From Bolinopsis microptera (lineage: Eukaryota; Ctenophora; Tentaculata; Lobata; Bolinopsidae), in contig NC_087072.1 in NCBI RefSeq assembly GCF_026151205.1, positions 722,875-786,874 of the forward strand: a stretch of DNA of 64,000 nt, in the 5' to 3' direction. Each line of letters begins with the position of its first letter. The first letter of the stretch is position 1. The notes beneath the pieces were generated by a model. It did no database searches. It saw nothing but the letters and a program-made list of their open reading frames with translations, and had not been told where the DNA came from. Shown one piece after another: positions 687 to 57,700 of the stretch. The position numbers and the translations under genes were made by a program.

Positions 687-847
687 GTCAATGATGACAC
701 TGTCCATGGACATGATGAACCGGTTCGCGGGACTGAAGAAGTTCGTGACAGTACCACTGGACATCTACCTGTGTATTACTGCAGTTCTGAAGAAGTACCA
801 GACCTGCCTGCTTATCTCAGAGCGAGATACTGAGTTCGTGTTTGACG
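687..847 (+). CDS. MED12: MED12-like exon a
   Basis: The acceptor is ctccgcag and the donor is GACG|gtgggt. The exon reads through [19 protein letters not shown] and then [19 protein letters not shown] to EFVFD, an amphipathic helical segment. It begins in phase 2 and ends in phase 1. The last 27 bases and the donor are the seed of the 62-bp array that follows. The preceding exons are outside the window. Confidence 0.6.
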
Positions 848-3800
848 GTGGGTAACAATCTAGCTATTATATATTATCTACTAGCGAGATACTGAGTTCG
901 TGTTTGACGGTGGGTAACAATCTAGCTATTATATATTATCTACTAGCGAGATACTGAGTTCGTGTTTGACGGTGGGTAACAATCTAGCTATTATATATTA
1001 TCTACTAGCGAGATACTGAGTTCGTGTTTGACGGTGGTTAACAATCTAGCTATTATATATTATCTACTAGCGAGATACTGAGTTCGTGTTTGACGGTGGG
1101 TAACAATCTAGCTATTATATATTATCTACTAGCGAGATACTGAGTTCGTGTTTGACGGTGGGTAACAATCTAGCTATTATATATTATCTACTAGCGAGAT
1201 ACTGAGTTCGTGTTTGACGGTGGGTAACAATCTAGCTATTATATATTATCTACTAGCGAGATACTGAGTTCGTGTTTGACGGTGGGTAACAATCTAGCTA
1301 TTATATATTATCTACTAGCGAGATACTGAGTTCGTGTTTGACGGTGGGTAACAATCTAGCTATTATATATTATCTACTAGCGAGATACTGAGTTCGTGTT
1401 TGACGGTGGGTAACAATCTAGCTATTATATATTATCTACTAGCGAGATACTGAGTTCGTGTTTGACGGTGGGTAACAATCTAGCTATTATATATTATCTA
1501 CTAGCGAGATACTGAGTTCGTGTTTGACGGTGGGTAACAATCTAGCTATTATATATTATCTACTAGCGAGATACTGAGTTCGTGTTTGACGGTGGGTAAC
1601 AATCTAGCTATTATATATTATCTACTAGCGAGATACTGAGTTCGTGTTTGACGGTGGGTAACAATCTAGCTATTATATATTATCTACTAGCGAGATACTG
1701 AGTTCGTGTTTGACGGTGGGTAACAATCTAGCTATTATATATTATCTACTAGCGAGATACTGAGTTCGTGTTTGACGGTGGGTAACAATCTAGCTATTAT
1801 ATATTATCTACTAGCGAGATACTGAGTTCGTGTTTGACGGTGGGTAACAATCTAGCTATTATATATTATCTACTAGCGAGATACTGAGTTCGTGTTTGAC
1901 GGTGGGTAACAATCTAGCTATTATATATTATCTACTAGCGAGATACTGAGTTCGTGTTTGACGGTGGGTAACAATCTAGCTATTATATATTATCTACTAG
2001 CGAGATACTGAGTTCGTGTTTGACGGTGGGTAACAATCTAGCTATTATATATTATCTACTAGCGAGATACTGAGTTCGTGTTTGACGGTGGGTAACAATC
2101 TAGCTATTATATATTATCTACTAGCGAGATACTGAGTTCGTGTTTGACGGTGGGTAACAATCTAGCTATTATATATTATCTACTAGCGAGATACTGAGTT
2201 CGTGTTTGACGGTGGGTAACAATCTAGCTATTATATCTCTATTTGCCTGAGGGTATCTTGAGTCAGTAAGGCCTTGAGTCATGCCTTACCATAATATCTG
2301 ATCACTTTGAAATTGTAGAATGATGCCGTTATTTTACCTTCACACACTCCAACATTATGCTGACCGTAGTGGTAGACTGTATAGTAGTAAACTGCGTCCG
2401 TTCACACGATATTTGGCAAATAAGTAAATCGTGATAATTACATCATTTCACTGAGTAGTCCCAGGTTTGACGGGCCACATCAGCTGTGATGTCACCTTAG
2501 TTACTATGGTTACCAGCCAGTTACTATGGTTACCAGTCAGTTACTATGGTTACATGCCAGTTACTATGGTTACCAGCCAGTTACTATGGTTATCAGCCAG
2601 CTCGCCTAAACTAGAAACTCTTTTTACGATAGTTCACTGGAAATAAAACTTGACGAGTACCGAGAAGGATATAAAATGGAATATTTATGTTGCGACAGTA
2701 GTTAGTAAACCTGTTCGCAGAAGCAGCTCATCCTATTTGTAAACCGCTGTTACATTTATTCTTAAATTGAGTAACGTCAGCATCTCTCAAGTTGAGTAAC
2801 GTCAGCATTTCTTTATGTTTGACAAGTTTATTTAAAGAGTTTTATAGGATCCCTCTCAAGCAAGCAACCATATTAGCAGTTCAGCAACCATATTAGCAGT
2901 TCAGCAACCATATTAGCAGTTCAGACACGATGTTTAATAATATTACTGGCTAGTCGTCTCTGGTCATTAGAATATTAGAATATTTCGAATAGAATAATAA
3001 AATCTCTCATTTTACGATATTATTGACATCAAACTACCCAATAATGGTTAAGAGGGTGTTACGCTATGTTACTATGGTTACAATAATGGTTAACCACGAG
3101 GGTTATATTTTGAGTATGAGGTTTGTTAGTATGACGTTAATTTCTTATTACAACCACTTGTTGCCACTTCCGCCCAGAATCTTTGACGTGCGTCAAATGT
3201 CACGTCAAACATCTGGAGCCCTAGTGCTCAGTAGGGCTAGACTGGTTAGATATTACTCTGAACCTAGTAACCTTAGTAACCTAGTAACCTGTTAACCTGG
3301 TAACCTGGTAACCTTGTTGCTTGCACAAGAGCAATTCTAATTGCAAATCATAATTTCAAACTCAGCTTAAACATTGATATTAGATATGTACATGGCATAT
3401 ACAATGAATATTCAATATGAATTACATTTCAGATATGTGAATGACTGAATCGCTTGTAAACATTTTAAATTGTTTGGACGTTGGACACTTTTAGATAATA
3501 ATCATGGTATGAGAACCTTTCGTGCTTCATCAACCCGCGTTAATACCTGCCCTAAACAGTAAACATGGTACCTGCCCTAAACATGGTACCTGCCCTAAAC
3601 AGAATAGTTTGGACTTCATGTATATACCACGAAGAGGGTGTTTCACGCTAAACCAGCCAGTTACTATGCATGTATGGTTACGCTAAAATCAATAGTTGGA
3701 AATCCCATACACCGACTAAATATCTATTTTAAGTCTACCTACCAACTAAGTAAATAAAATAAAGTACGCCAAAGCTCTTAAATAGTTTGTTTTGCTGGAA

Positions 3801-6800: not shown

Positions 6801-9800
6801 ATTTTATTCAAAATCTGAGTAAATTTTCATCTTAGATAATTGTTCAAGCATTCTGAAAATCTATCGGAAAGTTTTTCTAGCTTGCTCCTTCATAAAGATA
6901 TTCGTCATTGAAGTTTGTGCTTTTTTGAAGAATTATTTTATAAAAACGTCAATTTTGCGATTTAGTATTCTCTGGTGTTGGGCCATGCCTTGGGTTGTGG
7001 AGCTCAGTTCTGCTTCCTATAGGTATAAATTGTGCATTAGGCTAGTTTTAAAGTTGAAAATCGAAAAGTTGCACACGTGGGGACACGCCCAAATTGATAG
7101 AAAATCGCTAAAATCACTTAAAATTGCTGTTTTCGTCATTTTCTGTCAACTTTAGAGTGCCGTTGTGATTACAGTTCTTCTTGAAATACTTTGAAACTTT
7201 GCATGCTTATCAAGCTATATATAAAACAATTACATGCAAAAATTTACGGCGATTCAATATTGGATGCGCACGCAACGTCCGCTCAAAGTTTGCACGTGCG
7301 AAAGGTGAGAATTTTGCTCATTCGTGATTTCCAACAAATTCTGCTTTGCCACGACAGTTTAATGTCATTATATATGAATTTAATGCCAACTTGAATGAGT
7401 ATTAAGTGGCATATTCAGTCAGTGATCGACCGATATGCTTCCCTAAACACAAGGAAATGTTTTTAAAGGAAAAATTTCGAAATCGTTGAAACTTCCTCCT
7501 TATTAATGAAGATATCAGTTTATATTTCGACTTTATAAAGTACCCTGACATTATAATCAAAAAGAGATGATATTTTACCAAAACCCATAATCATGGGTAG
7601 AGTGGACCGCTGTCAGTGTCTCTCTTTCCCAAACAAAAGGAAATGATATTAATTTGATTGACCGTTCTCAAATGCAAAATGATACCGAGAATGAAATCGG
7701 TCGCTCGCTTTTCCCATTCATTTACAATTGTAATAGATTAAGAAGAACTACCCAAAGGCAGCTGTACTCGGCAATGAAGATTCAATAAACTTCAGCTTGT
7801 TCAATAAGTAATAACTACCACCCTTGTCCCTTACCCCGAAATACTATCGACCCGAACGCAACCCAAAGAGATTTTTACAGCATCTGATTGATGTAATCAA
7901 TCGAAACTTAATTATACAATTCGTAAGCCGTGAATGAATGGGAAAAGCGAGCGACCGATTTCATTCTCGGTATCATTTTGCATTTGAGAACGGTCAATCA
8001 AATTAATATCATTTCCTTTTGTTTGGGAAAGAGAGACACTGACAGCGGTCCACTCTACCCATGATTATGGGTTTTGGTAAAATCTCGTATCGGAAAATGA
8101 CTAAACTCAGGTCTGAGTGTGAATACGGGTGGTACCTGCAAGAGTGTTCATTAAGCATTTAGAGTTCTGTAAAACTGCAGTTACAATTGTGCTAGAGTAT
8201 TTTTAGTATATACGATTGGTATCAGATATATATCCCTACATGCTTCCAAAATTTGTAAAGCCGTAGTAGACTAGAACAACTATTAATATCCTGAATTGAC
8301 CATGTCAAAATATATCAATCCTTGAATTCTTACTGTCATCAAGATGCAGTTAGGCCTAACCAGTTAGCCCTAACCAGTTAGGCCTAACTGCATCTTGGTG
8401 ACAGTTAGAATGGTTTCCGGAGTTTCCCAGTTTCACTGAAGTATTTCTCACTACCACTTGCCCGGTGACTGAAAGCTTCTGCCACCGTTTAAGTAATACT
8501 AATAGCGAGAAATCAGAAATGTTACTGTTAGCCAACAATACTTCGTTTGAGGAATAAACTGAAAATAGTTGCAAAAAGGATATTGCTGATTTTATAAGCT
8601 CTTAAAACAGAATTTAATCAAAAAAGAAACGGAGTTATAATTTTAATTTGCAAAAGTTTCACACGTGGAATTGAAGATTGCCCCCTTTTTAAGATTGCCC
8701 CCTTTTTAAGATTGCCCCCTTTTTAAGATGCCCCTTTTTAAGATTGCCCCCTTTTTAAGATGCCCCCTTTTTAAGATGCCCCCTTTTTAAGATGCCCCCT
8801 TTTTAAGATGCCCCCCTTTTAAGATTGCCCCCTTTTTAAGATGCCCCCTTTTTAAGATTGCCCCCTTTTTAAGATGCCCCCTTTTTAAGATGCCCCTTTT
8901 TAAGATGCCCCCTTTTTAAGATGCCCCCTTTTTAAGATTGCCCCCTTTTTAAGATGCCCCCTTTTTAAGATGCCCCTTTTTAAGATTGCCCCCTTTTTAA
9001 GATGCCCCCTTTTTAAGATGCCCCTTTTTAAGATTGCCCCCTTTTTAAGATGCCCCCTTTTTAAGATGCCCCTTTTTAAGATTGCCCCCTTTTTAAGATG
9101 CCTCTGAAATACAAAATCAAACGCTGTGTGTTCAGATCGGTAAGGACGAGACAGCAGGGCAGAGTTTCGTTTCCACGGTGATTGTGGAGGTGTGTTCCGG
9201 CTACAATAAACACAAACTCCCGGACCTTGTGAAACTGTGTGCGGAGCTCACTACTCAACACAACTACCTGGAGGCTATCTGGATATCTGCCATCAACTGC
9301 CCTCAGCAGTGCGGGTTAGAATTCATTTTTAAGTATTTCTCATAGGATTACTTACGGCGGTAGTTTCGCTAAAGTAACTCTGCTTTTATCTCTCGATTAA
9401 AAGATGAGTAACGACCACATCATAATATGTCCCAGTGACCCCACCCTAATATGTCCCAGTGACCCCACCCTAATATGTCCCAGTGACCCCACCCTAATCT
9501 GTGCTATGCCAGTACCACGAAACAATGTTTGGATCTTGAAAATGGGATAATACTGTCGAATTAAGAACAATGTTATGGTTCGTATATAGCTAGCTGACTG
9601 GTAGTTGGGTCCGAGTAGGTTTGGTTAATCTGCGGCCAAACTGGATACGAATTACATAATTACATAATTACATAATTCAAACGACAGATTGTTGTTTTCA
9701 AAGCTCTCTAATAACATGTGCTAAGCTTTGTTCAACAAGCGAGATAACAATCTGCAGTCTGAAGTTGTACGAAAATTTAAAATTATGAATATACCATAGT

Positions 9801-36800: not shown

Positions 36801-39800
36801 GTTGTTGCATTGAAGGGGGTGGCTATGAGGTTGATGAGTTGTTGCAGTGAAGGGGGTGGCTATGAGGTTGATGAGTTGTTGCAGTGAAGGGGGTGGCTAT
36901 GAGGTTGATGAGTTGTTGCAGTGAAGGGGGTGGCTATAAGGTTGATGGATTGTTGCAGTGAAGGGGGTGGCTATGAGGTTGATGAGTTGTTGCAGTGAAG
37001 GGGGTGGCTATGAGGTTGATGAGTTGTTGTAGTGAAGGGGGTGGCTATGAGGTTGATGAGTTGTTGCAGTGAAGGGGGTGGCTATGAGGTTGATGAGTTG
37101 TTGCATTGAAGGGGGTGGCTATAAGGTTGATGAGTTGTTGCAGTGAAGGGGGTGGCTATGAGGTTGATGAGTTGTATCTTACAGAGCCGGAGACCTAAAG
37201 AGCAGTCAATGAACGCGAAATTTAACGTATGAGCAGCACTTCCACACCTCTAAATCACAAGCTAAATCTCTGGTAAAGCTTTTAAATGTAGTTACAAGAG
37301 CGGGGGGGGGGCACACTCCTCTGGTAAATCACAAGCTTTTAAATGTAGTTACAAGAGCGGGAAGGGGGGGGGGGCACAAGAGCGATATAGTCAGATTTTA
37401 ATGGTCTTTTAGCAAACACTGTTCTGAACTAGAGTTGTTGAATGCTGTGCCACAACTTGATTAAAAACCCTACGATTTTCGGAGATAAAAATGAACTCTT
37501 GGAAAGAACTGTGACCGTGAATGCAAGTTTAACTGCAAGTTAAACAGTTAACAATAATATTTACTGAGCTTCGCAATCAACAGAGTCTGGCTAAATGAAC
37601 AATTGTCAAGTTAATACCATTAACCGCATGACCGCTAGTGCCCATTATATATCGTCAAATTGAAACACTAAAAGAGATTCGATATTGGAAGCCACTATTA
37701 ATTAAGTTTACGACTCATTCGGCGGCGAATGTCTCATCAACATTTTCAAGTGATGAGTTTCGAACTAATTTCGAGGGGCCCTTAATTAGCTGATATTTTG
37801 TTATGAACCAACAAAACTGTAACCGTAAATGCAAGTTTAACAGCAAGTTTAACAGTTGGTATATACCGTGCTTCGCATTGAACCTCCCCGTGGCTTAGTG
37901 AACAATTGTCAAGTTAATTATCAAGTTTAATCTCAGATAGCAGAAACTTAGCCTCCTCGCACGGGTCAGGATAGTGTGTTGATAAGTGTTGCTATAGAGT
38001 GTGTTGCTATGTGTTGCTATGTGTTGCTAAGGGCAACTGTAGAAACTAACCCGGTTGTCCTTATAGAATGCCAAAAGATTCCTCAAAATTTGGACTGCTT
38101 AATTACAAGATTGTCTCATTACTTTGAGCGACCTACGTCAAGGGAAATTATTAGTGGTGCAAAATGATCCCTCACGCTGCCTACCCTTCCTCCCCCTCCC
38201 TCCCGCTGCCTACCCTTCCTCCCCTCCCTCCCCCTTCCCACCCTTCCTCCCTCTACCTATTTTTACCGTCCTTACAACTTTACAATAAACTGATGCATAT
38301 ATTTTCAGGGAACTGCCGGACGGGACGGACTGGTGGAGAATGTTGTCTCTGTTCGTGATCCAGCTGCTCAGATACCAGTGTTTCAGTCTCTGGTGGCTGA
38401 TCTACTACGTCATCCTGCCTTACCTCTACAAGTACTCCGAGTACAAGTGGCCCACCAACTGTCACGTGGCTTACCTCATGATAGCGCTCTTTACTCAGGT
38501 ACTTACCTCATGATAGCGCTCTTTACTCAGGTACTTACCTCATGATAGCGCTCTTTACTCAGGTACTTACCTCATGATAGCGCTCTTTACTCAGGTACTT
38601 ACCTCATGATAGCGCTCTTTACTCAGGTACTTACCTCATGATAGCGCTCTTTACTCAGGTACTTACCTCATGATAGCGCTCTTTACTCAGGTACTTACCT
38701 CATGATAGCGCTCTTTACTCAGGTACTTACCTCATGATAGCGCTCTTTACTCAGGTACTCACCTCATGATAGCGCTCTTTACTCAGGTACTTACTTCATG
38801 ATAGCGCTCTTTACTCAGGTACTTACCTCATGATAGCGCTCTTTACTCAGGTACTTAACTCATGATAGCGCTCTTTACTCAGGTACTTACCTCATGATAG
38901 CGCTCTTTACTCAGGTACTTACCTCATGATAGCGCTCTTTACTCAGGTACTTACCTCATGATAGCGCTCTTTACTCAGGTACTTACCTCATGATAGCGCT
39001 CTTTACTCAGGTACTTACCTCATGATAGCGCTCTTTACTCAGGTACTTACCTCATGATAGCGCTCTTTACTCAGGTACTTACCTCATGATAGCGCTCTTT
39101 ACTCAGGTACTTACCTCATGATAGCGCTCTTTACTCAGGTACTTACCTCATGATAGCGCTCTTTACTCAGGTACTTACCTCATGATAGCGCTCTTTACTC
39201 AGGTACTTACCTCATGATAGCGCTCTTTACTCAGGTACTTACCTCATGATAGCGCTCTTTACTCAGGTACTTACCTCATGATAGCGCTCTTTACTCAGGT
39301 AATTATTATTATTTTTTCCTTCACTCAGGTAATTTGATTTGAAACTTTCATCAAATAATGCACAATTATACAACAAGGGAACCTGATTGAAATCAATGGC
39401 GACGAATAATGTTTAGGCTGGGAAAATGCTCGGACTAATGATATCACTGACATTAATTTAATCGTTTCGCACAAGTTAACGGATTTACGGACTTATCTGG
39501 AAGCTGATATTCAACAACAACAACACTTTTTCTATTGATATTCAAGACCAAATAGCAAAGAAAAATAGTAAAAAGTCCACAAATAAAATTTGGATGCTGC
39601 ATAATCAGGAGAGAGGTGACAACAATAAGAGATATGTCAGAACCTTGCAAACTAATTATATCAATTATATACTAATTATATATATCAATTATATACTAAT
39701 TATATCAAACACAATACCACACATCGGACAATTTTCACTTTGGATAGTGAAACAACAGTCTAGCCTAATCTCTTTGCTCCCCATATTATTATTATTTTTT

Positions 39801-42800
39801 AAATCTACCTTCCTATACTTTCAACATCATATCACACTTCCCCCACACACCTTCTCGCACATTAATGACCATATCAGACCTGTATCTGATGTATCTGGAA
39901 TTTTGACTCCATATCCACAGTTATTAACAAATAACAATGGATTTGTTTAAAATGTTGTATAAGCTAAATAGTGTAACCCGTGCCTACGGCCGGGTTTTCA
40001 CTATCGCAGTTGAAATGCAAAAGTATAAACCCGCCAATTATATTCGAAAATACGCATTACATTTTCGTAGTTAAAACGGCGCGAAAGTATGAACTCGCTC
40101 ATTCCAAACATACCACAATTTAATTCTGAATGCCCCTCACATATCAAATAGTAATACTTGATAGGCAATCTTGATTCTTGAGATCCCCTGCCAAATTATC
40201 CCAATTATATAGAAAATATGTTATGAGGGGAGAGAGAGCGAGAGTGGGAGAGTACACATGACACACACACACATACACACTTTAGTATCACATTTGGGAC
40301 ACAAAATGATCAATTAAACCACTTACCACCGACCGATTTAAAAAACCTTTATTATTTGGCTTTGTCAGAGTTTTCTCGGTATATACCGAAAAAACCAGCC
40401 CCGTAACTCTTACCGTTTTCTTGATTAAGCCGCTCGGAAATTACACGCGCACACACACAGCCAGACACACACTCTGAGATTATTGTTTAAGATACTTTTT
40501 GCAAAAATACCATTTTTGTCATAAAAAGCCTCTGATGTAAAACAACCTTATCGTGTCTGCCCAAACAGGCATCACAAGGCAACTGGGTCAATAAAGAATA
40601 ATAATGATATGATATTATATTATATTATAATATATAATAATAATGATAATTTAGTTGTTCTACTCTGTGGCATCTAGATTACGAGTTACTGCTGACTTCA
40701 TGCAATATTCTACTGACTAAATACTGATTACACAGAAAATTAAGGTTTAGTTTTCCGTTTAAATGATAGTAAATTGTCCCGATCTTAATTTTGATTTGAA
40801 ACTTTCATCAAATAATACAGAAATATGCAACATGGAAACTTAATTATACAACGAGGGAACCTGATTGAAAAACGACAAAGAATGTTTAGGCTGGGAAAAT
40901 GCTTGGAGTTGGACTGGTTAGAGCAGGCACAAGTAAAGCAGCATTTTACTGTAATATATAGTTAATTGATAGTTGATCTACTAGGTACTGTGAAGTAAGT
41001 GTGCCGAAGCATATAGGAGTTCTTAGAAAATTGACAAATGAAACATAGGTTTGTTATGCTGGAGGACTATCAACCCCCTCCGGCCTCCAGTCACTATGCT
41101 ATCGTGAGTTCTAAGCGTCTTCAAGGACAGATCAGTATCACCATTTCTAATGCTTACCGTCTTCAAAACCATGGTGGGGCTAGAATTGAGCTAGAATTGC
41201 TCTGTAGCTAGTGGCTACACAGTACACACTATGATAACTCATTTGGAGTGAAAGCTAGAATTGTTCTGTGGTTAGTGGCTACACACCATGATAGCTCATC
41301 TGGAGTGAGCTAGAATTGCTCTGTAGCTAGTGGCTACACACTATGATAACTCATTTGGAGTGAAAGCGGCACAGTTGTGGAATCTTCTCCCCAAAGAAAT
41401 AAATCCCATATCTACTTTGGGCTCGTAAAGATCGCCACTGTTACTATGGTAACAATATCACTGGCTAAAAACAATTTCACGCTGCTACAGATAACATTTG
41501 GAATGGTACTTACAAAAAGACTACAGCGCGAGCGGAGTGATAGAATGACGTGCTTTATAATGCTGTTTTCTGGATCCCAGCCAAATATACTCTAAGTACT
41601 TTGAATAAGTTATTATCAAGAAGAACGCCCGTCACAATTAGTACTGAGAAAATACCTGTTATTTACGAATAAGTAAATATCACATACTCGTTATTTTATA
41701 TAATACACTTATTAAAGTTCTGCGACCCTATTTAATAGTAAATAGTAATTATAACCATTAATTTACCATCATGCTCCAAAACCGGCTCAGATTTCGCCAA
41801 AAAATCAGGAAAAAAGTGTCCATCAAATTTATGTTTAAGTCTAAACAAATCTTTACAATCCGACTATCACCAATTCCAAATTCACTAGATACCATATTAG
41901 TGTTGTCATGGTTACCACTAGATAACTACATTTTCAGATCGAGTACCCGGAGACGGAGCACGTGGACGACTCAATCATCTCCCACTCCGCATTCCGGCAC
42001 CTTGATGCGGACAGGAGGGCTCTGAAGCCGCTCCGGTTCGCTACCATGCTGAAACTACTGATCAGAAACAGCACTGTGGACCAGGAAATACCGCCCTCAC
42101 ACAGTTAGTCATACGCTTCCTCAAACTCTTCAAATAGCAGTCAATGACAGAGACGCTCCCCCACCCCCCCCCCCCCCCCCCCCCCCCCCAAAGTAACGCT
42201 TGTTTCCCCTCAGAGCACCTGAAATAACCCTTGTTTCCCCTCAGAACCCCCAATGTAACGCTTGTTTCCCCTCAGAACCCCCCAAAGTAACGCTTGTTTC
42301 CCCTCAGAGCACCTGAAATAACCCTTGTTTCCCCTCGGAACCCCCAATGTAACGCTTGTTTCCCCTCAGAACGCCTCAAATAACGCTTGTTTCAGAGCAC
42401 CTGAAGCCGATGGCAGTGTTAAAGAGGATCTGTTCCCAGACCTGGGTGCCGGAACTGTGTCTGTCCACCCCGGAGAAGTTAGTGTCTATCAACTACCTGG
42501 CAGATAAGGAGATTACACCCCACAACGCCCAGCTCCTGCTCCATCTCATTTGTAATCCTCAATCTACTGACATGCCTTCTACTGACCCTACCGAACTTGT
42601 CGGAAACATCATCAAGGTTTATACTTTAAACTTAGTAACCTAGTAACATAGTAACTCAGTAACCTAGTAACCTAGTAACCTAGTTACTATGAAGAAGTAG
42701 TAACATCTCATCTGTAATCCCCAATCTACTGACATGCCTTCTACTGACCCTACCGAACTTATCGGAAACATCATCAAGGTTTATACTTTAAACTTAGTAA

Positions 42801-45800
42801 CCTAGTAACCTAGTAACTCAGTAACCTAGTAACCTAGTAACCTAGTAACTATGAAGAAGTAGTAACATCTCATTTGTAATCCCCAATCTACTGACATGCC
42901 TTCTACTGACCCTACCGAACTTATCGGCAACATCATCAAGGTTTATACTTTAAACTTAGTAACCTAGTAACCTAGTAACTCAGTAACCTAGTAACCTAGT
43001 AACCTAGTAACTATGAAGAAGTAGTAACATCTCATTTGTAATCCCCAATCTACTGACATGCCTTCTACTGACCCTACCGAACTTATCGGAAACATCATCA
43101 AGGTTTATACTTTAAACTTAGTAACCTAGTAACTCAGTAACCTAGTAACCTAGTAACCTAGTTACTATGAAGAAGTAGTAACATCTCATTTGTAATCCTC
43201 AATCTACTGACATGCCTTCAACTGACCCTACCGAGCTTATCGGAAACATCATCAAGGTTTATACTTTAAACTTAGTAACCTAGTAACCTAGTAACTCAGT
43301 AACCTAGTAACCTAGTAACCTGGTAACTATGAAGAAGTAGTAACATCTCATCTGTAATCCCCAATCTACTGACATGCCTTCTACTGACCCTACCGAGCTT
43401 ATCGGAAACATCATCAAGGTTTGTACTTTAAACTTAGTAACCTAGTAACTCAGTAACCTAGTAACCTAGTAACCTAGTTACTATGAAGAAGTAGTAACAT
43501 CTCATTTGTAATCCCCAATCTACTGACATGCCTTCTACTGACCCTACCGAACTTATCGGCAACATCATCAAGGTTTATACTTTAAACTTAGTAACCTAGT
43601 AACTCAGTAACCTAGTAACCTAGTAACCTAGTAACCTAGTTACTATGAAGAAGTAGTAACATCTCATTTGTAATCCCCAATCTACTGACATGCCTTCTAC
43701 TGACCCTACCGAGCTTATCGGAAACATCATCAAGGTTTATACTTTAAACTTAGTAACCTAGTAACTCAGTAACCTAGTAACCTAGTAACCTAGTAACCTA
43801 GTTACTATGAAGAAGTAGTAACATCTCATCTGTAATCCCCAATCTACTGACATGCCTTCTACTGACCCTACCGAGCTTATCGGCAACATCATCAAGGTTT
43901 ATACTTTAAACTTAGTAACCTAGTAACCTAGTAACTCAGTAACCTAGTAACCTAGTAACCTAGTTACTATGAAGAAGTAGTAACATCTCATTTGTAATCC
44001 CCAATCTACTGACATGCCTTCTACTGACCCTACCGAACTTATCGGAAACATCATCAAGGTTTATACTTTAAACTTAGTAACCTAGTAACCTAGTAACCTA
44101 GTAACCTAGTAACCTAGTAACCTAGTAACTATGAAGAAGTAGTAACATCTCATTTGTAATCCCCAATCTACTGACATGCCTTCTACTGACCCTACCGAGC
44201 TTATCGGAAACATCATCAAGGTTTATACTTTAAACTTAGTAACCTAGTAACCTAGTAACTCAGTAACCTAGTAACCTAGTAACCTAGTTACTATGAAGAA
44301 GTAGTAACATCTCATTTGTAATCCCCAATCTACTGACATGCCTTCTACTGACCCTACCGAGCTTATCGGAAACATCATCAAGGTTTATACTTTAAACTTA
44401 GTAACCTAGTAACCTAGTAACTCAGTAACCTAGTAACCTAGTAACTATGAAGAAGTAGTAACATCTCATTTGTAATCCCCAATCTACTGACATGCCTTCT
44501 ACTGACCCTACCGAGCTTATCGGAAACATCATCAAGGTTTATACTTTAAACTTAGTAACCTAGTAACCTAGTAACTCAGTAACCTAGTAACCTAGTAACC
44601 TAGTTACTATGAAGAAGTAGTAACATCTCATCTGTAATCCTCAATCTACTGACATGCCTTCTACTGACCCTACCGAGCTTATCGGAAACATCATCAAGGT
44701 TTATACTTTAAACTTAGTAACCTAGTAACCTAGTAACTCAGTAACCTAGTAACTCAGTAACCTAGTAACCTAGTTACTATGAAGAAGTAGTAACATCTCA
44801 TTTGTAATCCCCAATCTACTGACATGCCTTCTACTGACCCTACCGAGCTTATCGGAAACATCATCAAGGTTTATACTTTAAACTTAGTAACCTAGTAACC
44901 TAGTAACTCAGTAACCTAGTAACCTGGTAACCTAGTTACTATGAAGAAGTAGTAACATCTCATTTGTAATCCCCAATCATCATCAAGGTTTATACTTTAT
45001 AATATCTTGTTTTAGGTTTGTCATATTGTGACCTCTACATCAAGATTCAAGAAGGTTACTGGGTCTATATATATATAAAGAAGACAACCAAAATGTTTGC
45101 AACGGCCTTATTAATATACAACTTATGAAGCGTTAGCAACACACGAAATTGCCAATAATTCGATATGTTTCTCGATAACTCATAATATTTCAATTTGTCA
45201 ATTATCGCGGTGGTTACGAGCTCGAAAAATGTCGACTAGCATACTAATAGTAGTGAATTACAAGGATATTTGAGTCTACATCATCTTTAATAAATGTATA
45301 ATATACTTATATAATATAGGTGCGGCCAACTAAGCTAAGTAAAGTAGTAATATCCCGTAACAAGCATAAGCTTGGTAATATCCTGTTAAAATCACCTGTT
45401 GTACCCCCCACCCAACCTGTTGTACCCCTCAGAATATGGACATGTGTAACCTGTTGTACCCCTCAGAATATGGACATGTGTAACCTGTTGTACCCCTCAG
45501 AATATGGACATGTGTAACCTGTTGTACCCCTCAGAATATGGACAATGTGTAACCTGTTGTACCCCTCAGAATATGGACATGTGTAACCTGTTGTACCCCT
45601 CAGAATATGGACAATGTGTAACCTGTTGTACCCCTCAGAATATGGACATGTGTAACCTGTTGTACCCCTCAGAATATGGACATGTGTAACCTGTTGTACC
45701 CCTCAGAATATGGACATGTGTAACCTGTTGTACCCCTCAGAATATGGACAATGTGTAACCTGTTGTACCCCTCAGAATATGGACATGTGTAACCTGTTGT

Positions 45801-48800
45801 ACCCCTCAGAATATGGACATGTGTAACCTGTTGTACCCCTCAGAATATGGACATGTGTAACCTGTTGTACCCCTCAGAATATGGACATGTGTAACCTGTT
45901 GTACCCCTCAGAATATGGACATGTGTAACCTGTTGTACCCCTCAGAATATGGACATGTGTAACCTGTTGTACCCCTCAGAATATGGACATGTGTAACCTG
46001 TTGTACCCCTCAGAATATGGACATGTGTAACCTGTTGTACCCCTCAGAATATGGACATGTGTAACCTGTTGTACCCCTCAGAATATGGACATGTGTAACT
46101 TGTTGTACCCCTCAGAATATGGACATGTGTAACCTGTTGTACCCCTCAGAATATGGACATGTGTAACCTGTTGTACCCCTCAGAATATGGACAATGTGTA
46201 ACCTGTTGTACCCCTCAGAATATGGACAATGTGTAACCTGTTGTACCCCTCAGAATATGGACATGTGTAACCTGTTGTACCCCTCAGAATATGGACATGT
46301 GTAACCTGTTGTACCCCTCAGAATATGGACATGTGTAACCTGTTGTACCCCTCAGAATATGGACATGTGTAACCTGTTGTACCCCTCAGAATATGGACAT
46401 GTGTAACCTGTTGTACCCCTCAGAATATGGACATGTGTAACCTGTTGTACCCCTCAGAATATGGACATGTGTAACCTGTTGTACCCCTCAGAATATGGAC
46501 ATGTGTAACCTGTTGTACCCCTCAGAATATGGACATGTGTAACCTGTTGTACCCCTCAGAATATGGACATGTGTAACCTGTTGTACCCCTCAGAATATGG
46601 ACATGTGTAACCTGTTGTACCCCTCAGAATATGGACAATGTGTAACCTGTTGTACCCCTCAGAATATGGACATGTGTAACCTGTTGTACCCCTCAGAATA
46701 TGGACATGTGTAACCTGTTGCACCCCTCAGAATATGGACATGTGTAACCTGTTGTACCCCTCAGAATATGGACATGTGTAACCTGTTGTACCCCTCAGAA
46801 TATGGACATGTGTAACCTGTTGTACCCCTCAGAATATGGACATGTGTAACCTGTTGTACCCCTCAGAATATGGACATGTGTAACCTGTTGTACCCCTCAG
46901 AATATGGACATGTGTAACCTGTTGTACCCCTCAGAATATGGACATGTGTAACCTGTTGCACCCCTCAGAATATGGACATGTGTAACCTGTTGTACCCCTC
47001 AGAATATGGACATGTGTAACCTGTTGTACCCCTCAGAATATGGACAATGTGTAACCTGTTGTACCCCTCAGAATATGGACAATGTGTAACCTGTTGTACC
47101 CCTCAGAATATGGACATGTGTAACCTGTTGTACCCCTCAGAATATGGACATGTGTAACTTGTTGTACCCCTCAGAATATGGACATGTGTAACCTGTTGTA
47201 CCCCTCAGAATATGGACATGTGTAACCTGTTGTACCCCTCAGAATATGGACATGTGTAACCTGTTGTACCCCTCAGAATATGGACATGTGTAACCTGTTG
47301 TACCCCTCAGAATATGGACATGTGTAACCTGTTGTACCCCTCAGAATATGGACATGTGTAACCTGTTGTACCCCTCAGAATATGGAGTATGGACATGTGT
47401 AACCTGTTGTACCCCTCAGAATATGGACATGTGTAACCTGTTGTACCCCTCAGAATATGGACATGTGTAACCTGTTGTACCCCTCAGAATATGGACATGT
47501 GTAACCTGTTGTACCCCTCAGAATATGGACATGTGTAACCTGTTGTACCCCTCAGAATATGGACATGTGTAACCTGTTGTACCCCTCAGAATATGGACAT
47601 GTGTAACCTGTTGTATCCCTCAGAATATGGACATGTGTAACCTGTTGTACCTTTCAGAATATGGACAATGTGTAACCTGTTGTACCCCTCAGAATATGGA
47701 CAATGTGTAACCTGTTGTACCCCTCAGAATATGGACATGTGTAACCTGTTGTACCCCTCAGAATATGGACATGTGTAACCTGTTGTACCCCTCAGAATAT
47801 GGACCATGTGTAACCTGTTGTACCCCTCAGAATATGGATATGTGTAACCTGTTGTACCCCTCAGAATATGGACATGTGTAACCTGTTGTACCCCTCAGAA
47901 TATGGACATGTTTAACCTGTTGTACCCCTCAGAATATGGACATGTGTAACCTGTTGTACCCCTCAGAATATGGACAATGTGTAACCTGTTGTACCCCTCA
48001 GAATATGGACAATGTGTAACCTGTTGTACCCCTCAGAATATGGACATGTGTAACCTGTTGTACCCCTCAGAATATGGACAATGTGTAACCTGTTGTACCC
48101 CTCAGAATATGGACATGTGTAACCTGTTGTACCCCTCAGAATATGGACAATGTGTAACCTGTTGTACCCCTCAGAATATGGACATGTGTAACCTGTTGTA
48201 CCCCTCAGAATATGGACATGTGTAACCTGTTGTACCCCTCAGAATATGGACATGTGGACCATGAGGTCGGCTCACCTGAAAGTAAGGCTGATAAGAGTAA
48301 GGAGTAAGGAGAATAACGAGGGGGAGGAGGAGGAGGCGGCCACCCTCAAACTCATCACTGACGCTGTCGTCTGTACTCTGGGACATCTCCTCACCGAGGT
48401 AGGGTTTAAGGGAACAATAATAATTTTAATCTAGTTGCCTGGTAACCTAGTAACCTAGTAACCCAGCAACTCTATTAACCTAGTAACCCAATAACTAATA
48501 ATAGTAATCAGTAGTCAATGACTAGGGTTATTGCGATGAAAAGTTACATGGAATGATGGCGTCTGGGCTTGGGACCAGCTCACACTCATAGTACACTACA
48601 TTAATACATTAATGCCCTCTGAATACCATCAGCTAAAGAAATGAATATGTTAATAGTAGTAGTAGTAGTAGTAGTACAGCAGAGTGTCAGAATTATTGGC
48701 GTGTTTGAAATTTTATGTGTATTTTATGATGAAATCAATATTTTTCGACGGGTCATAACTTTACTTCTGAATATCGAAATTACTGGTCTGTAGACAAAAA

Positions 48801-48964: not shown

Positions 48965-49362
48965 CGTGGTCCGGACTTTAATCCGGGACTCTAATCCGGG
49001 ACTCTGGTCCGGGACTCTGGTCCGGGACTCTGATCCGGGACTCTGGTCCGGGACTCTAGTCCGGGACTCTAGTCCGGGACTCTAGTCCGAGACTCTAGTC
49101 CGGGAATCAAGTCCGGGACTTTAATCCGAGACTCTTGTTCGGGACTCAAGTCCGGGACTTTAGTCCGGGACTCTAGTCCGGGAATCTAGTCCGGGAATCT
49201 AGTCCGGGACTCTAGTCCGGGAATCTAGTCCGGGACTCTAGTCCGGGACTCTAGTCCGGGACTCTAGTCCGGGACTCTAGTTCGGGACTCTAGTCCGGGA
49301 CTCTAGTCCGGGACTTTAATCCGGGACTCTAGTCCGGGACTCTAGTTCGGGACTCTAACGGA
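48965..49362. repeat. 13-bp tandem array
   Basis: About 30 copies of gactctagtccgg (variants gactttaatccgg, gactctggtccgg), starting about 20 bp after the exon i donor. Confidence 0.93.
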
Positions 49363-50341
49363 GCGGGGTCCGAATTATAACAGTATTACAAAATAAATGC
49401 AATAAATATTTATTGAGGTGAACTTCCGTAGAGAGCAAGTTTTCGGTTATTATTATTATTATATATATACTAGTGTATATATATATATATATATACAATA
49501 TATATATCTTAATATATCGTATATAAAGCGAGACGATATACATTATATGTAGGTATATATAATTATATATATATATATTTTATTTATTTATGTATATAAA
49601 TTGTGGGTGGCGTCGTCTGCTGACAGTGCTCAATCGGCAAGCTGAGAGCTAGATACAGTTGTCACTGATGATATCATGGTTTGGTATCATGATTGAAACA
49701 TTTGTCTGACTCTTGAACCGTTCGTTTCAATTTGTATTATATATATATCCATACCATTTTACTGACACCACGGCATCAACTTTAACACGACTTTCCGCAA
49801 AAACCGTAAAAGATATACAACTTAAAATAAAAAATTGGCCAAGGAATAAGAATTTTAGTGCCCAAAATTTGGACCCCCAAGTGGTGTCAAAAACGCGAAT
49901 TAAATAGGCAATAATTATTTTAGTTTCTTGAGTTTTGACATCATTTTAGGGTTGGACGGGTTCGTGCTAAATATAATGGAATTATTATAATAAATATAAT
50001 GGTATAATTATCTTAAATATAATAGTATTATAATAAATATAATAGTATTATTATTATAAATTTAATGGTATTTTTATAATAAATATAATGGTATTATTAT
50101 AATAAATATAATGGTATTTGGTTTCTTGGTGTGTTTTGAGGGATGTTGCTCAAATTAGGAATTTCCAAATTTAATACAAGCTACGGCAACAAATATTGAT
50201 ATTGCAGAATCATGCAAACTCCTCTCGAGAACATTTGTTCGGTAATTAAATAATAATATCAAATATATTCAATCCGCAGAAGTGTACAGTTAATCAAAAT
50301 GGCTGAGGAATGCACAGATCTATGATCATATCATCGATATA
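49363..50341. other. AT-rich stretch with no gene
   Basis: TA microsatellites (49440-49575) and repeats of tataataaatataatggtat (about 49977-50115). No exon is recognised here, although further MED12-like exons are expected downstream. Confidence 0.6.
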
Positions 50342-53300
50342 CTAGTAAGGGGAAAAGTGGTCGATTTAAGGGTTCCGTTGGATTTGAATGTTCACAAGGA
50401 TTTCTCAACGGAATATGGTAGTTAGGACCCCTACGAACATAATTAGACTTGTTGCCAATTTTGTATCTCAACAGAAACACCACTTTTACCACTTTTTACC
50501 ACCTTTGTACCACCTTTCTGGTTTGCCAAATATCTTTAGTTGTGAACGTCGTAGAAGGCTGCAAATTAACCTAGAATGTTTATCTTATCAAGGAGTAAAA
50601 CTTTTGTATGAAAAATTGTTACATTGGACAATCAGCTAATTGGATAATTACCAATTAGTTAATCACCAAAAAAAGTGAAAATTTTTTATTGGCTCAAAAT
50701 GATTGAAATCGTTTGAAACACGGAGAAATGTAGTTTTTAGAAAAACTTCAAAAATTTTTCACTTACAATTTTTTTTCGAGACTTGGAAAAAAGTTTGAAA
50801 ATTTGAAAATATATTATTCCGCCAAAAGTGATCGAATTGCATGAAACGTGGATAAAAATGCTTTGCAGAAAAACTTCGAAGATTTTTAGATTGGGGAATA
50901 CTAAAATCATCAATATTTGAAGTTGGAGTTCAGTAAATCTCGACATATTTTATTAATTAGGAATGGCTTAGCGGAAAGGGCTGAACCTGAAAAAGGTTAA
51001 CCACACAATATTAGAGTTTCATAACTAATTACAATACAGCTTTATCAAATTCCAAATAAAGAAACAGCACAAAAGGACCATTTAAGATCGAACCGATTTT
51101 ACCTGCTGTACTATCATTTTATTGATTTCAATGATCAAAACCTCTGTACCGTCAATCTTGCCAATCTATACCGGGTATCTGAATGTACCGGACCTCTTAT
51201 TTACTTCTATAATTAGACACAGTTGTGCAAGAAATGCGATTTCTCACAGGGGTTTCTTTTAACTGTGCACTTTTTGTCACTCTCGCAAGAGGCCCGGTAT
51301 TATAGGGGGGGTATAGGAAGCGAGTGTAAATCTACCTTTCATCATCCACTGTGGCTTTTTTGCCTTGTGAATGCGCATGCCGCTTCGTTTGCTATGCCAG
51401 AATCCAGATACCTCAAATAACCCTCATATCTCATTGCCAGGGTCGGGATAGAGCTGGAGATAGCATCGAGAGGTTGCTAGAAATAGCTAGATTTAGAGTA
51501 AACTGGTGGTAGCTAGGTGGTGCTAGCATGGATGTAGCAGAACGTAGCTACACGGGGTTTCATTGGAGTTGGTTATTTTAATGGCCAAAGAGTGCCGGAA
51601 CTAAAGTTACTTAAGATTGCAGTTGAGGGGCACTCCTGGGGCAGTGTAAACCACGGTGTAATCAGGGATACAGAGCTACAGTGCAGGAGTACTGCAAAAG
51701 AACAGTGCAAGTGATACAGTCTGCAACAGTAAAACGCCGAAGAAGGAGATTAGATTGCGGCTGCAGAGGAGGAGAGGAGCTGGAACCTGATTGTGTTTGT
51801 GTTGAAAGAAGAGGAGGAAGAAGAGTTTCCTGCTCTAGTAACTGCATTTTTTGGAAGAGGTGGGGTGAGAACTTATTTTCAAGCGACAAGGGTGGGCTGG
51901 AAGCAACCAGGTACAGCTATCCGACCTATTAAGATCACCGTCCTGAGCTTAACAGCCTTTCATCAGAATCTGATGAAAACAGAGAGACTGACCCACCCTT
52001 TTTAGATACAACGAAACCCTTTATATAAATCGACTTTTCCGCATGAATTACTTCATGGTATCTTCTTATCAAGGCTACAGACCTTGCCGTACCGGATTTA
52101 TTGATCAAAGTGAGTCTCTTTAGCCCTCTTCTTCATCATGTAGTACGTTCTGCTACCTCCATTTTAGCACCACCCAGCTTCCATCAGTTCACTCTAAGTC
52201 TAGCTTCTTCGGCGTTTTACTGTTGCAGACTGTATCACTTGCACTGTTCTTTTGCAGTACTCCTGCACTGTAGCTCTGTGTCCCTGACCACACCGTGGTT
52301 TACACTGCCCCTCAACTGCAATCTTAAGTAACTTTAGTTCCGGCACTCTTTGGCCATTAAAATAACCAACTCCAATGAAACCCCGTGTAGCTACGTTCTG
52401 CTACATCCATGCTAGCACCACCTAGCTACCACCAGTTTACTCTAAATCTAGCTATTTCTAGCAACCTCTCGATGCTATCTCCAGCTCTATCCCGACCCTG
52501 GCAATATGATATGAGGGTTATTTGAGGTATCTGGATTCTGGCATAGCAAACGAAGCGGCATGCGCATTCACAAGGCAAAAAAGCCACAGTGGATGATGAA
52601 AGGTAGATTTACACTCGCTTCCTATACCCCCCCTATAATACCGGGCCTCTTGCGAGAGTGACAAAAAGTGCACAGTTAAAAGAAACCCCTGTGAGAAATC
52701 GCATTTCTTGCACAACTGTGTCTAATTATAGAAGTAAATAAGAGGTCCGGTACATTCAGATACCCGGTATAGATTGGCAAGATTGACGGTACAGAGGTTT
52801 TGATCATTGAAATCAATAAAATGATAGTACAGCAGGTAAAATCGGTTCGATCTTAAATGGTCCTTTTGTGCTGTTTCTTTATTTGGAATTTGATAAAGCT
52901 GTATTGTAATTAGTTATGAAACTCTAATATTGTGTGGTTAACCTTTTTCAGGTTCAGCCCTTTCCGCTAAGCCATTCCTAATTAATAAAATATGTCGAGA
53001 TTTACTGAACTCCAACTTCAAATATTGATGATTTTAGTATTCCCCAATCTAAAAATCTTCGAAGTTTTTCTGCAAAGCATTTTTATCCACGTTTCATGCA
53101 ATTCGATCACTTTTGGCGGAATAATATATTTTCAAATTTTCAAACTTTTTTCCAAGTCTCGAAAAAAAATTGTAAGTGAAAAATTTTTGAAGTTTTTCTA
53201 AAAACTACATTTCTCCGTGTTTCAAACGATTTCAATCATTTTGAGCCAATAAAAAATTTTCACTTTTTTTGGTGATTAACTAATTGGTAATTATCCAATT

Positions 53301-53587
53301 AGCTGATTGTCCAATGTAACAATTTTTCATACAAAAGTTTTACTCCTTGATAAGATAAACATTCTAGGTTAATTTGCAGCCTTCTACGACGTTCACAACT
53401 AAAGATATTTGGCAAACCAGAAAGGTGGTACAAAGGTGGTAAAAAGTGGTAAAAGTGGTGTTTCTGTTGAGATACAAAATTGGCAACAAGTCTAATTATG
53501 TTCGTAGGGGTCCTAACTACCATATTCCGTTGAGAAATCCTTGTGAACATTCAAATCCAACGGAATGCCACTTTTCCCCTTACTATA
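50342..53587. mobile_element. Fold-back (long inverted repeat) element
   Basis: The left arm runs from about 50342 to 51742 and the right arm from about 52207 to 53587. They are near-identical over about 1.37 kb, with a few substitutions and an 11-bp insertion in the left arm (cactcctgggg, about 51630). A non-coding spacer of about 460 bp separates them. The ends are agtaaggggaaaagtgg and its complement, preceded by tac(t) and followed by atac, which may be a 3-4-bp target duplication. All ORFs in the arms occur in mirrored pairs and have no family marks. No transposase is seen, so it is probably a non-autonomous DNA transposon of fold-back type. Confidence 0.8.
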
Positions 53588-53858
53588 CGTTTCTTCAAAC
53601 ATTTCAACCTTCATCGTAACTTTCTACGGTATGGTTCTGAAAACGATCCTTTAGGGTTAGACGAGTTCCTGCTAGTCTAATATAATACATAAAGTGATAC
53701 ATGATCCATAAATCTCCTAATTCTGTCTTCTTGGATCTCCCTTATAGAAATTGAGATCTGTATATTCTCTCACATCTTGTGAAATAAAACTATCTTCATT
53801 AGTGAAACAAAAATCAATTAATAACAACTCAAATTATGTACATAAATATGGATAGATC

Positions 53859-53864
53859 TTTATT
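53859..53864 (-). terminator. Candidate poly(A) signal for the SLC7-like gene
   Basis: AATAAA on the - strand about 300 bp downstream of the transporter stop. It is the expected motif at a plausible distance, but the region is AT-rich, so a chance match is possible. Confidence 0.35.
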
Positions 53865-54165
53865 CATTCCACACAAGCCCCTATTTCTGTTCATCCCGCA
53901 GAAAAAGGAGAATCCTCAAAAGTAGACTAAATTTGTCGTTCTTAAGGTAAATGGAATGGAAAATGGTCTCGAAAAGTCGAAAAATTTGACTAAAGTTGTT
54001 GTAGACTAACAATTTGCGAAATTTGTTACTAACATTATGGTAACCAAAATTATGGTAACCAAATTTATTGGCCCTAAGAGAAAGTATCAATTTTCTGCTC
54101 AAATTACGCGTGAAAATTCCCAGTACAATATGTGTAAATAATCAAACTAAAATGATTAACAAAGA

Positions 54166-54726
54166 TTATCTGACAGAACTTTCGCCTGTGTCGTCCAACT
54201 TAATCTCCTTCAAACTCAACCGTTTCTGCTTCTCCGCGGTGATCTTGGAGAAGAAGATCCCGTACCCGAAGTAGATTATGAGCCCGACAATGCAGTAGAT
54301 AACCAGCTGTTTCAAGGCTACCACCTCCAGATGAAAGAGAAGCAGGAGGTTTACAAAGACTGAGAACCCCTGAACAAACGGTTTACCCGGACTTTTAAAA
54401 GACAGTGTCCCGTCCTCCTCTTGTGCCTTTAAAGGAATCTTGCATCTGATGAGAGTGAGACTGACTATCATGATGATAGCAAGGACCACCTCTGAAACAA
54501 TCACTGCAGTGGACTGTTCGAGGAATGCAGTGAGGAATGCCAACACGATGGTGGCCAGCAGGAAGACACACATGAAGATGATGAAGAGATGTTTTCTGGC
54601 GTGAGTCTTCTCTGCGGTCAGTGGAGTTTCCTCGGTTTCTTCCATATCTGGGTCCGTTAGGTCGTAGGAGAGGATCATTACTGCTAACGCTGTGATCACA
54701 AACACTGTCAGGGTTCCACCCGAGAT
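54166..54726 (-). CDS. SLC7 CAT-like exon 5 and stop
   Basis: The acceptor is cctctccag. The exon starts ISGGTLTVFVITALAVMILS and ends LKEIKLDDTGESSVR before the stop at 54166-54168. It encodes a hydrophilic loop (TDPDMEETEETPLTAEKTHA) and about four membrane helices, as in the C-terminal domain of CATs. Confidence 0.88.
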   Translation of the reverse strand: MSGGTLTVFVITALAVMILSYDLTDPDMEETEETPLTAEKTHARKHLFIIFMCVFLLATIVLAFLTAFLEQSTAVIVSEVVLAIIMIVSLTLIRCKIPLKAQEEDGTLSFKSPGKPFVQGFSVFVNLLLLFHLEVVALKQLVIYCIVGLIIYFGYGIFFSKITAEKQKRLSLKEIKLDDTGESSVR

Positions 54727-57700
54727 CTGGAGAGGTTTAGGTTAGTTTCAATATCTTAAAATATAGTGGCAATCAATAATCAATATCCATCATGTTTATA
54801 GAAATATGGATCATGGACGGAAATATTCTATGGTCAAAAATCAAGATTACAACTAAGATAAAATCATCTTATTATCTTTTAAACAACTCTAAAGTAACCT
54901 AAAGTAAACAACTCACCATATGACTGAGGGTATCGAACTCGTACACGATACTGGACAGTATCCCCACCACGCTGCACACCACCACATTCCACATGGGCAC
55001 CAACCTAGTAACCTAGTAACCTAGTAACCTAGTAACCTAGTAACCTAGTAACCTAGTAACTCACCATATGACTGAGGGTATCGAACTCGTACACGATACT
55101 GGACAGTATCCCCACCACACTGCACACCACCACATTCCACATGGGTACCAACCTAGTAACCTAGTTACCTAGTAACCTAGTAACCTAGTAACCTAGTTAA
55201 CCTAGTAACTCACCATATGACTGAGTGTATCAAACTCGTACACGATACTGGACAGTATCCCCACCACGCTGCACACCACCACGTTCCACATGGGCACCAA
55301 CCTAGTAACCTAGTTACCTAGTAACCTAGTAACCTAGTAACCTAGTTAACCTAGTAACTCACCATGTGACTGAGGGTATCGAACTCGTACACGATACTGG
55401 ACAGTATCCCCACCACGCTGCACACCACCACGTTCCACATGGGCACCTGAGTCCTCTTGTAGACACTGTTCAGGAAGGGGAACAGCAGGCCGTCCTCCGC
55501 CACGGAGTACACTACGCGGACTACTGTAGTTACAGTGCAGAGTCCGCACGAGAATACTGTGAAGATCAGCCCCGCTGTTACTACGTACTGTGGTAGTGTC
55601 AGTCCTGGGGGAGACAGGTTCAGTTACCATGGTAACTCTGTAAGTCACATGTCAGTCCTGAGGGAGACAGGTTCAGTTACCATGGTAACTCTGAGGGAGA
55701 CAGGTTCAGTTACCATGGTTACTCTGTAAGTCACATGTCAGTCCTGGGGGAGACAGGTTCAGTTACCATGGTTACTCTGTAATTCACATGTCAGTCCTGG
55801 GGGAGACAGGTTCAGTTACCATGGTTACTCTGTAATTCACATGTCAGTCCTGGGGGAGACAGGTTCAGTTACCATGGTTACTCTGTAATTCACATGTCAG
55901 TCCTGGGGGAGACAGGTTCAGTTACCATGGTTACTCTGTAATTCACATGTCAGTCCTGGGGGAGACAGGTTCAGTTACCATGGTTACTCTGTAATTCACA
56001 TGTCAGTCCTGAGGGAGACAGGTCCAGTTACCATGGTTACTCTGTAATTCACATATTGGGACAGTGTTTCCAATGGAATATTTGAGTCTGCAGGTTCAAG
56101 GTTGGTGATGTATTTCTAGTGTGTAATGTGTATACTTATTACTTATATAGAGATAAGCTTACCTTTACGTTTGAGAGATCCAATAAGACCTGTGTTTCCC
56201 CCGACCTCATACCACGGTTCAATGAAAGCGATGGAGAAAGCTGTTACCACGTACAGAACCAGCACTATCAGGAAGGAGCCCATGGTAGCCCGAGGGAGAT
56301 CCCGTTTAGGGTCCACGGACTCCTCCGCTAGAGTCACAACTGACTCCAACCCCACGAATGCGAAGAAAGCAGTCCCCGCTCCCGTCATGATGCCGCTGAA
56401 CCCGAACGGAGCGAACCCCGTCCTGCCGTCCGCTGGATTAACCACTCTGGAGAGGTTAGCAACATCTCCGTTCACCAGCGCCACTATGTTGAAGGTTAGC
56501 AGAGATATCGCAGAGACCCCAGCTATGGCAATGTTGAGATAGGACACTGTCTTTATTCCTGCCATGTTGATAGCCATGAAGAGGAGCATGATACCAATAG
56601 CGATCAGATCTGTGTGTAGCAACCAGTCAGGAAAGTTTGAGCTCTGCCATTCTTGGACAGTCCCATTAATGAGGAACTTGTCGATGTTGTCAGACAGTCC
56701 CAGGGTTAACATTGGGGCCTGAATGATCAGCTCTCCGATCAGGAAGAAACCGGAGATGGCAGCTGCGAGTTCTCCCATTGAGAAGTAAGTGTAAACGTAG
56801 GAGGAACCAGTGCAGGAGTACCTGATGTTAAAATATTGTGAGGATTCATGTGACCTAGTAACCTGGTAACTTAGCAACCTAGTAACCTAGTATTTAGTAA
56901 CCTAGTAACTTAGTAACCTAGTAACTCAGTAACCTAGTAACCTAGTAACTATGAAGAAGTAAGTATAAACGTATGAGGAACCAGTACACATGCAGGAGTA
57001 CCTGATGTTAAAATATTGTGAGGAGTCATGTGACCTAGTAACCTAGTAACCTAGTAACTTAGCAACCTAGTAACCTAGTATTTAGTAACCTAGTAACTTA
57101 GCAACCTAGTAACCTAGTATTTAGTAACCTAGTAACTTAGTAACCTAGTAACTCAGTAACCTAGTAACCTAGTAACTATGAAGAAGTAAGTATAAACGTA
57201 GGAGGACCCAGTGCAGGAGTACCTGATGTTAAAATATTGTGAGGAGTCATGTGACCTAGTAACCTAGTTACTCAGTAACCTAGTAACTTAGTAACCTAGT
57301 AACCTAGTAACCTAGTAACCTAGTAACCTAGTAACCTAGTAACTATGAAAGTATGAAGAAGTAAGTATAAACGTAGGAGGACCCAGTGCACATGCAGGAG
57401 TACCTGATGTTAAAATATTGTGAGGAGTCATGTGACCTGCTCGAACAGCTTTAGTCAAGTTTAAAATATAGTACAGAATGGGACAGAATATAATAGATAA
57501 ATATACTGTACTAGCATATGATAAAAAGTTTCGCCGATTTCATTATAATTTCAAGTTAAATGTAAGATCTGAGTTGTTGTTTCTTCAAACGCTTACCTGG
57601 CAGCAAGATCACTGTAGCATAACACGGACAAGGCAGCAGCTAGACCGGATATCAGATAGCTGATACACGTGGCAGGTCCTGCCATTGACTGCACAATCGC

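Follow-up and report, generated by a model that had tools for sequence, protein, structure and literature searches.

Tandem arrays repeatedly straddle exon-intron junctions in a 64,000-nucleotide stretch of the genome of the ctenophore Bolinopsis microptera (C1:722875-786874 in an assembly of 264.65 Mb in 232 contigs; hereafter, the window). At 8 of the 20 junctions that could be placed in the window, the repeat unit comprises coding bases, the splice site, and intron sequence; with the 40 kb upstream included, 10 of the 34 junctions around 17 introns are straddled. The junctions belong to MED12, on the plus strand, and to a transporter gene of the SLC7 type, on the minus strand. We explain the arrays, with a probability of about 0.7, by ordinary minisatellite growth, i.e., random tandem duplication in repeat-rich DNA that is tolerated while the exon-proximal splice site survives. 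A previous inspection of the bare sequence (the sequence-only reading) had listed eight such arrays, in two genes on opposite strands, and all of them were recovered here. It had offered two explanations, a genome-wide process seeded at splice junctions or tolerance of growth on the intron side only; the second is adopted here as the probable main explanation.

Repeat units combine exon edge, splice site, and intron

Tandem repeats were located with Tandem Repeats Finder (TRF; score 80 for the window and the upstream 40 kb, and a laxer score of 50 for the myosin loci used for comparison), and the copies of each splice site were counted per array with probes in which mismatches were allowed. 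Two long probes undercounted, namely, those for the exon g acceptor (4 sites, against 6 decoys with a shorter probe) and for the SLC7 exon 3 acceptor (2 sites, against 4). The 20 placeable junctions are both sides of MED12 exons a, b, e, f, g, and h and the SLC7 donors (D) and acceptors (A) 1D, 2A, 2D, 3A, 3D, 4A, 4D, and 5A; the MED12 exon model may be incomplete in the a-b and b-e intervals.

Five of the arrays in the window lie on MED12. The donor array of exon a (exon, 687..847; array, 821..2236) consists of a 62-bp unit repeated 22.8 times according to TRF, with ∼28 to 31 of the 62 bases exonic; among its 23 copies, GT is present in 22 at the register tested, and the first intron base is 848 or 852. 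At exon e (38309..38498), the donor array (38470..39305) contains 26 copies of a 32-bp unit, 29 bases of which are exonic, with GT in 26/26. Exon g (42396..42616) is flanked on both sides. Its acceptor array (42185..42395) has 6 to 7 units of ∼31 bp with ∼10 exonic bases each, the final unit having part of its tract missing, and its donor array (42542..44978) has 15 units of ∼162 bp that join ∼75 exonic bases to intron sequence with AACCTAGT repeats (GT in 15/15). The largest copy number is found upstream of exon h (48243..48398), where a 34-bp unit with ∼15 exonic bases is repeated 83 times (45414..48256) and carries AG in all 83 copies.

The minus-strand SLC7 gene is straddled at three junctions. 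The acceptor array of exon 3 (exon, 56167..56821; array, 56781..57436) has 4 units of ∼180 bp, each with ∼42 exonic bases plus AACCTAGT repeats, and the shorter probe placed its acceptor sites at 57403, 57222, 57001, and 56821. Exon 4 (55363..55604) carries an acceptor array (55597..56054) of 8 to 9 units of 53 bp with 8 exonic bases, in which the site is intact in 8/8 copies, and a donor array (54910..55447) of 4 units of 149 bp, with ∼85 exonic bases plus ACTAGGTT repeats and an intact site in 4/4. Two further arrays straddle MED12 junctions in the 40 kb upstream of the window. One, at a donor, has a unit of ∼112 bp with ∼70 exonic bases and 10 sites; the other, at an acceptor, has 7 sites and a unit of ∼114 bp, the exonic bases of which specify CEWAVTHRRTGSHR of the LCEWAV signature. 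By reading, the latter array is split by a retroelement of ∼2 kb with a reverse transcriptase-like frame, flanked by an apparent 21-bp target duplication.

The sequence-only description of the units thus holds in that all of them span the junction; it needs correction in that the exon e donor unit contains only 3/32 intron bases and the SLC7 exon 4 acceptor unit only 8/53 exonic ones. In five of the ten units (exon g donor, SLC7 exon 3 acceptor, SLC7 exon 4 donor, and both upstream arrays), an exon edge is joined to an 8- to 10-base repeat of the TAGTAACC / GGTTACTA type, the commonest form of which yields 2409 overlapping matches genome-wide when searched as a 24-mer. An exact 23-mer of the exon a donor unit matched 22 times at a single locus in the genome, and an exact 30-mer of the exon e donor unit matched at two MED12 copies only.

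The captured exonic bases are old coding sequence, as seen in NMDMWTMR of exon h, in the LCEWAV signature at the upstream acceptor, and at the end of SLC7 exon 4. Their match to the MED12 and CAT1 (cationic amino acid transporter 1) chains continues across the junction, which gives the direction of the event: the arrays captured coding sequence, rather than supplying it to the exons. Exonic bases, as judged by hand, make up a fraction of 0.15 to 0.91 of the unit, and this fraction does not depart from a uniform distribution (Kolmogorov-Smirnov P = 0.37, n = 10); the placement of the unit looks unrelated to the exact splice site. Per-site variant rates stay at or below 1.6% in the arrays of exons a, e, and g; they are 0.3% in the intron-side part of the exon h array and 4 to 8% in the SLC7 exon 4 acceptor array, whereas the exon side of the exon h array reaches 6.5%, mostly because of ∼15 copies with one extra base. 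Such low rates indicate that the arrays are mostly young or homogenized. Splicing at any of the 178 decoy sites found in the ten arrays would introduce a premature stop, an outcome to be expected of most random sequence as well; because of these stops, an intact protein needs the exon-proximal site.

A partial second copy of both genes carries arrays of different lengths

A second copy of MED12 exons e to h and SLC7 exons 1 to 4 lies at about C1:36-48 kb, ∼725 kb off and near the contig end (loci L001, L005, L039, and L040; C1:36-49 kb). Its homology to the window stops near window position 58075, and in a protein search with exons X4 to e, only exon e had a match at both loci, the preceding exons being recovered near the window alone. 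A comparison of eight exons between the copies gives 45 synonymous changes, 5 nonsynonymous ones, and no stops (synonymous divergence, dS, ∼0.098; nonsynonymous divergence, dN, ∼0.0035). Either a segmental duplication of part of the region or a haplotype left unmerged in the assembly could account for this second copy.

For five of the seven arrays that can be compared, the difference between the copies exceeds one unit. At the SLC7 exon 4 donor, the second copy has 1 site, against 4 in the window, and the single unit is followed by the same intron. At the exon h acceptor, a single site of the second copy is joined to the exon and is preceded by units that consist of intron alone (16 motif matches), against 83 such sites in the window. 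The exon g donor is present 3 times in the second copy and 15 times in the window, exact 30-mers of the exon e donor unit 35 and 22 times, and the SLC7 exon 3 acceptor 3 and 4 times. The SLC7 exon 4 acceptor yields 11 + 7 motif matches in two adjoining loci of the second copy, compared with 9 in the window, and the exon g acceptor is found 6 times in each. At the joins of the exon h array, reading reveals three bases, GTG, common to the exon and the intron flank; in this one case, the sequence would suit a microhomology-mediated duplication. Neither the intron-only units at exon h nor the single exon 4 donor, together with an exonic overhang that is not fixed, bears out the seeding of arrays at junctions that the sequence-only reading had proposed.

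Chance expectation and competing explanations

The comparison with a random expectation depends on the null. A plain coverage null, which the straddling arrays did not exceed in the window, was set aside, since at 48% coverage whole arrays placed at random would bury exons. We used instead a geometric null in which a unit falls at random in or across an ancestral intron, taken as the present length minus extra units and the retroelement. Where the ancestral intron is short (∼110 to 340 bp) and the unit is 31 to 180 bp, random placement often crosses an exon edge; among the shorter ancestral introns, 4 of 5 arrays straddle, against 2.40 expected. The sequence-only argument that ordinary intronic satellites would not be expected to begin within coding sequence therefore fails for short introns.

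That argument fares better for long ones, and this is among the points that weigh against our explanation. For ancestral introns of at least 600 bp, 6/37 arrays straddle, against 1.16 expected under the geometric null. Over the window and the upstream part together, the count is 10/42, against 3.56 expected (P = 7.8e-5; ∼2.8-fold), and with automatic TRF edges only, it is 8/43, against 3.55 (P = 0.005). Furthermore, the ancestral intron lengths and three straddle flags were assigned by hand, the use of the exon-proximal site counts as predicted from sequence, and which copy retains the older state is presumed from the two copies alone. The window had been chosen for its straddling feature, so the excess may carry an ascertainment bias, and the upstream part alone, where the count is 2/10 against 0.80 expected, gives P = 0.18.

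Outside this region, straddled junctions numbered 0/52, by reading, in parts of three interior myosin genes (3 of ∼11 loci, picked for exon density), a sample that lends no support to junction seeding as a genome-wide process. These loci hold 13 arrays, for which 1.44 straddles were expected, an overestimate in which one spurious short intron counts as 1. Several of their arrays come within 12 bases of an exon. The difference between 10/34 junctions in MED12 and SLC7 and 0/52 in myosin (Fisher P = 3.7e-5) goes with tandem-repeat coverage, which is 48% in the window (87 TRF rows, merged), 22% in the 40 kb upstream, 11.9% in a random sample (200 kb from 20 places), and 3.7% at the myosin loci, even with the laxer TRF score. 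Straddling appears where repeat coverage is high, and the pattern is real but looks local. The random sample contains 49 arrays next to open frames. One myosin locus, L032, also has adjoining exon matches (2612-2803 and 2855-3085) to the same domain positions (105-167 and 102-167), possibly alternative exons.

Duplication or array growth might also be favored at splice junctions, e.g., by transcription- or splicing-coupled breaks or by splice-site-like microhomology, which we regard as unlikely; that junctions are true minisatellite hot spots beyond intron length and repeat density, through a mechanism tied to transcription or splicing, seems slightly more doubtful still. The surplus of straddling arrays relative to the geometric null, which is greatest in long introns, speaks for this idea, as do two arrays that start at or within one base of the first intron base (at upstream exon X1b and at myosin locus L032). 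So do two of five further loci with AACCTAGT repeats (L034 to L038), where the composite unit ends in an open frame bordered by a good splice site: an acceptor at L035 (680-1510, ∼7 units) and a donor at L037 (442-760, 2 units). However, the exons at L035 and L037 have no family match above the cutoff (a Pfam search gave nothing for the L037 exon and a subthreshold spectrin match, E = 0.12, for that of L035), and an exon edge was not found at L034, L036, and L038. The myosin junctions, the upstream count, the variable overhang, and the intron-only form of the exon h array argue in the same direction. A consensus donor 9-mer has 2462 matches in the genome, compared with 1212 for a reversed control. 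Among the first 100 places listed for this 9-mer, 17 sit in one array (L041, C1:6658906-6667021), many of them 57 bases apart; in the part read, the units bear two CAGGTA-type sites each, and there is no recognizable exon.

Two other explanations appear less probable. If the multiplied sites were useful as spares or decoys that buffer or regulate splicing and were kept by selection, intact dinucleotides would be expected, and they are intact in nearly all copies. Entire units are near-identical, however, which makes the conservation of the sites nothing special. Variation along the unit reveals no consistent protection around the junction, on which ground we rejected selection on decoy sites, and copy number varies widely between gene copies, one of which makes do with a single exon 4 donor; we consider such usefulness improbable. 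An assembly error, with repeats collapsed or expanded, is the least probable of all: the partial second copy near a contig end could indeed be an unmerged haplotype, but junction arrays occur at both loci, their units have internal variants, and one array is split by the retroelement with its apparent target duplication. Exact copy numbers may nonetheless be off.

Gene models and neighboring features

The joined exons a, e, g, and h match Mediator subunit 12 (PDB chain 8tq2_C) with E = 1e-10. Exons a, b, g, and h align to this chain, the stretches of a and b being weak by themselves: exon a, an open frame bounded by AG and GT, aligns weakly to residues 921-952 within the joined query, and exon b (9136..9314) aligns to 1047-1097. 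A 16-bp array stops 33 bases upstream of exon b and does not straddle its junction. Exon h reads NMDMWTMR where 8tq2_C has NLDQWTMR. Further exons in the upstream 40 kb match the same chain with E = 2.3e-33 and include a Pfam Med12-LCEWAV match. Exon e, without alignment to the PDB chain, and exon f (41938..42103), which has no straddled junction, are assigned to MED12 by their open frames, their splice sites, and synonymous-only change in the second copy (2 and 7 synonymous changes, respectively, and 0 others). The minus-strand gene is closest to CAT1 (E = 4.7e-65); its remaining exons are exon 1 (57880..58030), exon 2 (57599..57722), and exon 5 (54166..54727).

The MED12 introns also house a 12.5-kb satellite of 28-base units (15348-27802, ∼438 copies) and, nested on the opposite strand, a single-frame gene for a rhodopsin-type receptor (10821-11972, minus strand; Pfam 7tm_1). 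Between MED12 and SLC7 lies a perfect 1260-base inverted repeat (50373-51632 and 52306-53565) with arms 673 bases apart, which has the appearance of a recent fold-back mobile element. Neither an Rfam nor a tRNA scan of the window returned matches.

Discussion

In the explanation that we favor, minisatellites would be born when sequence in a repeat-rich chromosomal region is duplicated locally in tandem. The splice site would play no particular part in where a unit falls, and with short ancestral introns, units would be likely to cross an exon edge. Were a duplication to lie wholly inside an exon, the protein would in most cases be disrupted and the duplication lost, whereas one that crosses the junction would keep the exon intact along with a working exon-side site and could survive. 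Further copies would then accumulate on the intron side through unequal exchange or slippage. The spliceosome is predicted to use the exon-proximal site (the first donor or the last acceptor) and to remove the rest as intron. The site used, the mechanism of duplication, and the loss of exonic duplications are the steps that we infer.

The arrays also show how an intron can expand by kilobases, starting at its edge and proceeding inwards, and how coding sequence can end up inside an intronic satellite. The two closely similar gene copies, with 1 versus 4 and 3 versus 15 donors and 1 versus 83 exon-joined acceptors, amount to a natural experiment on splice-site choice, for which exon definition predicts selection of the exon-proximal site among near-identical ones. 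Were a junction bias to hold genome-wide, it would represent a new link between splicing and repeat instability.

For comparison, TRF repeats make up 13% of the genome in the ctenophore Hormiphora, and heterozygosity there is ∼3.2% (PMC8527503). Short direct repeats near intron borders have been described (PMC11782384), and intronic repeats in earthworm metallothionein genes (PMC12783039) are a more distant relative. Introners resemble the present arrays as repeated sequences with splice sites; they are dispersed over many genes, whereas the two units tested here are confined, that of the exon e donor to two MED12 copies and that of the exon a donor to one. Introners were rejected on this absence of dispersed near-identical copies, established with exact patterns for 2 of the 10 units. 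The duplication model of intron gain (PMC4974935) is closer, as it involves the tandem duplication of a segment with splice signals that is tolerated since splicing removes the extra copy. In that model, a new intron interrupts an exon, or a block of intron plus exon is duplicated; here, existing introns grow at their edge, and no new one is seen. Formation of a new intron was rejected at one junction, where the second copy has the same intron after its single exon 4 donor unit; at the other nine, the arrays border introns between exons, by reading only. Among the sources returned by literature searches on splice-site-bearing repeats, one alone looked close, a 2009 Genome Biology study of minisatellites located where exons meet introns in segmentally duplicated human genes (PMC2812944). 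Similarly to the arrays in Bolinopsis, the human units lie at exon-intron boundaries. Their number differs between recent gene copies; in Bolinopsis, it varies between two copies that may be duplicates or unmerged haplotypes. The human repeats average 30 bp × 4, half of them lie in coding exons, and some make new introns, whereas those of MED12 and SLC7 reach 83 copies, occupy 10/34 junctions of two conserved genes, and hold decoy sites all of which, where checked, give stops.

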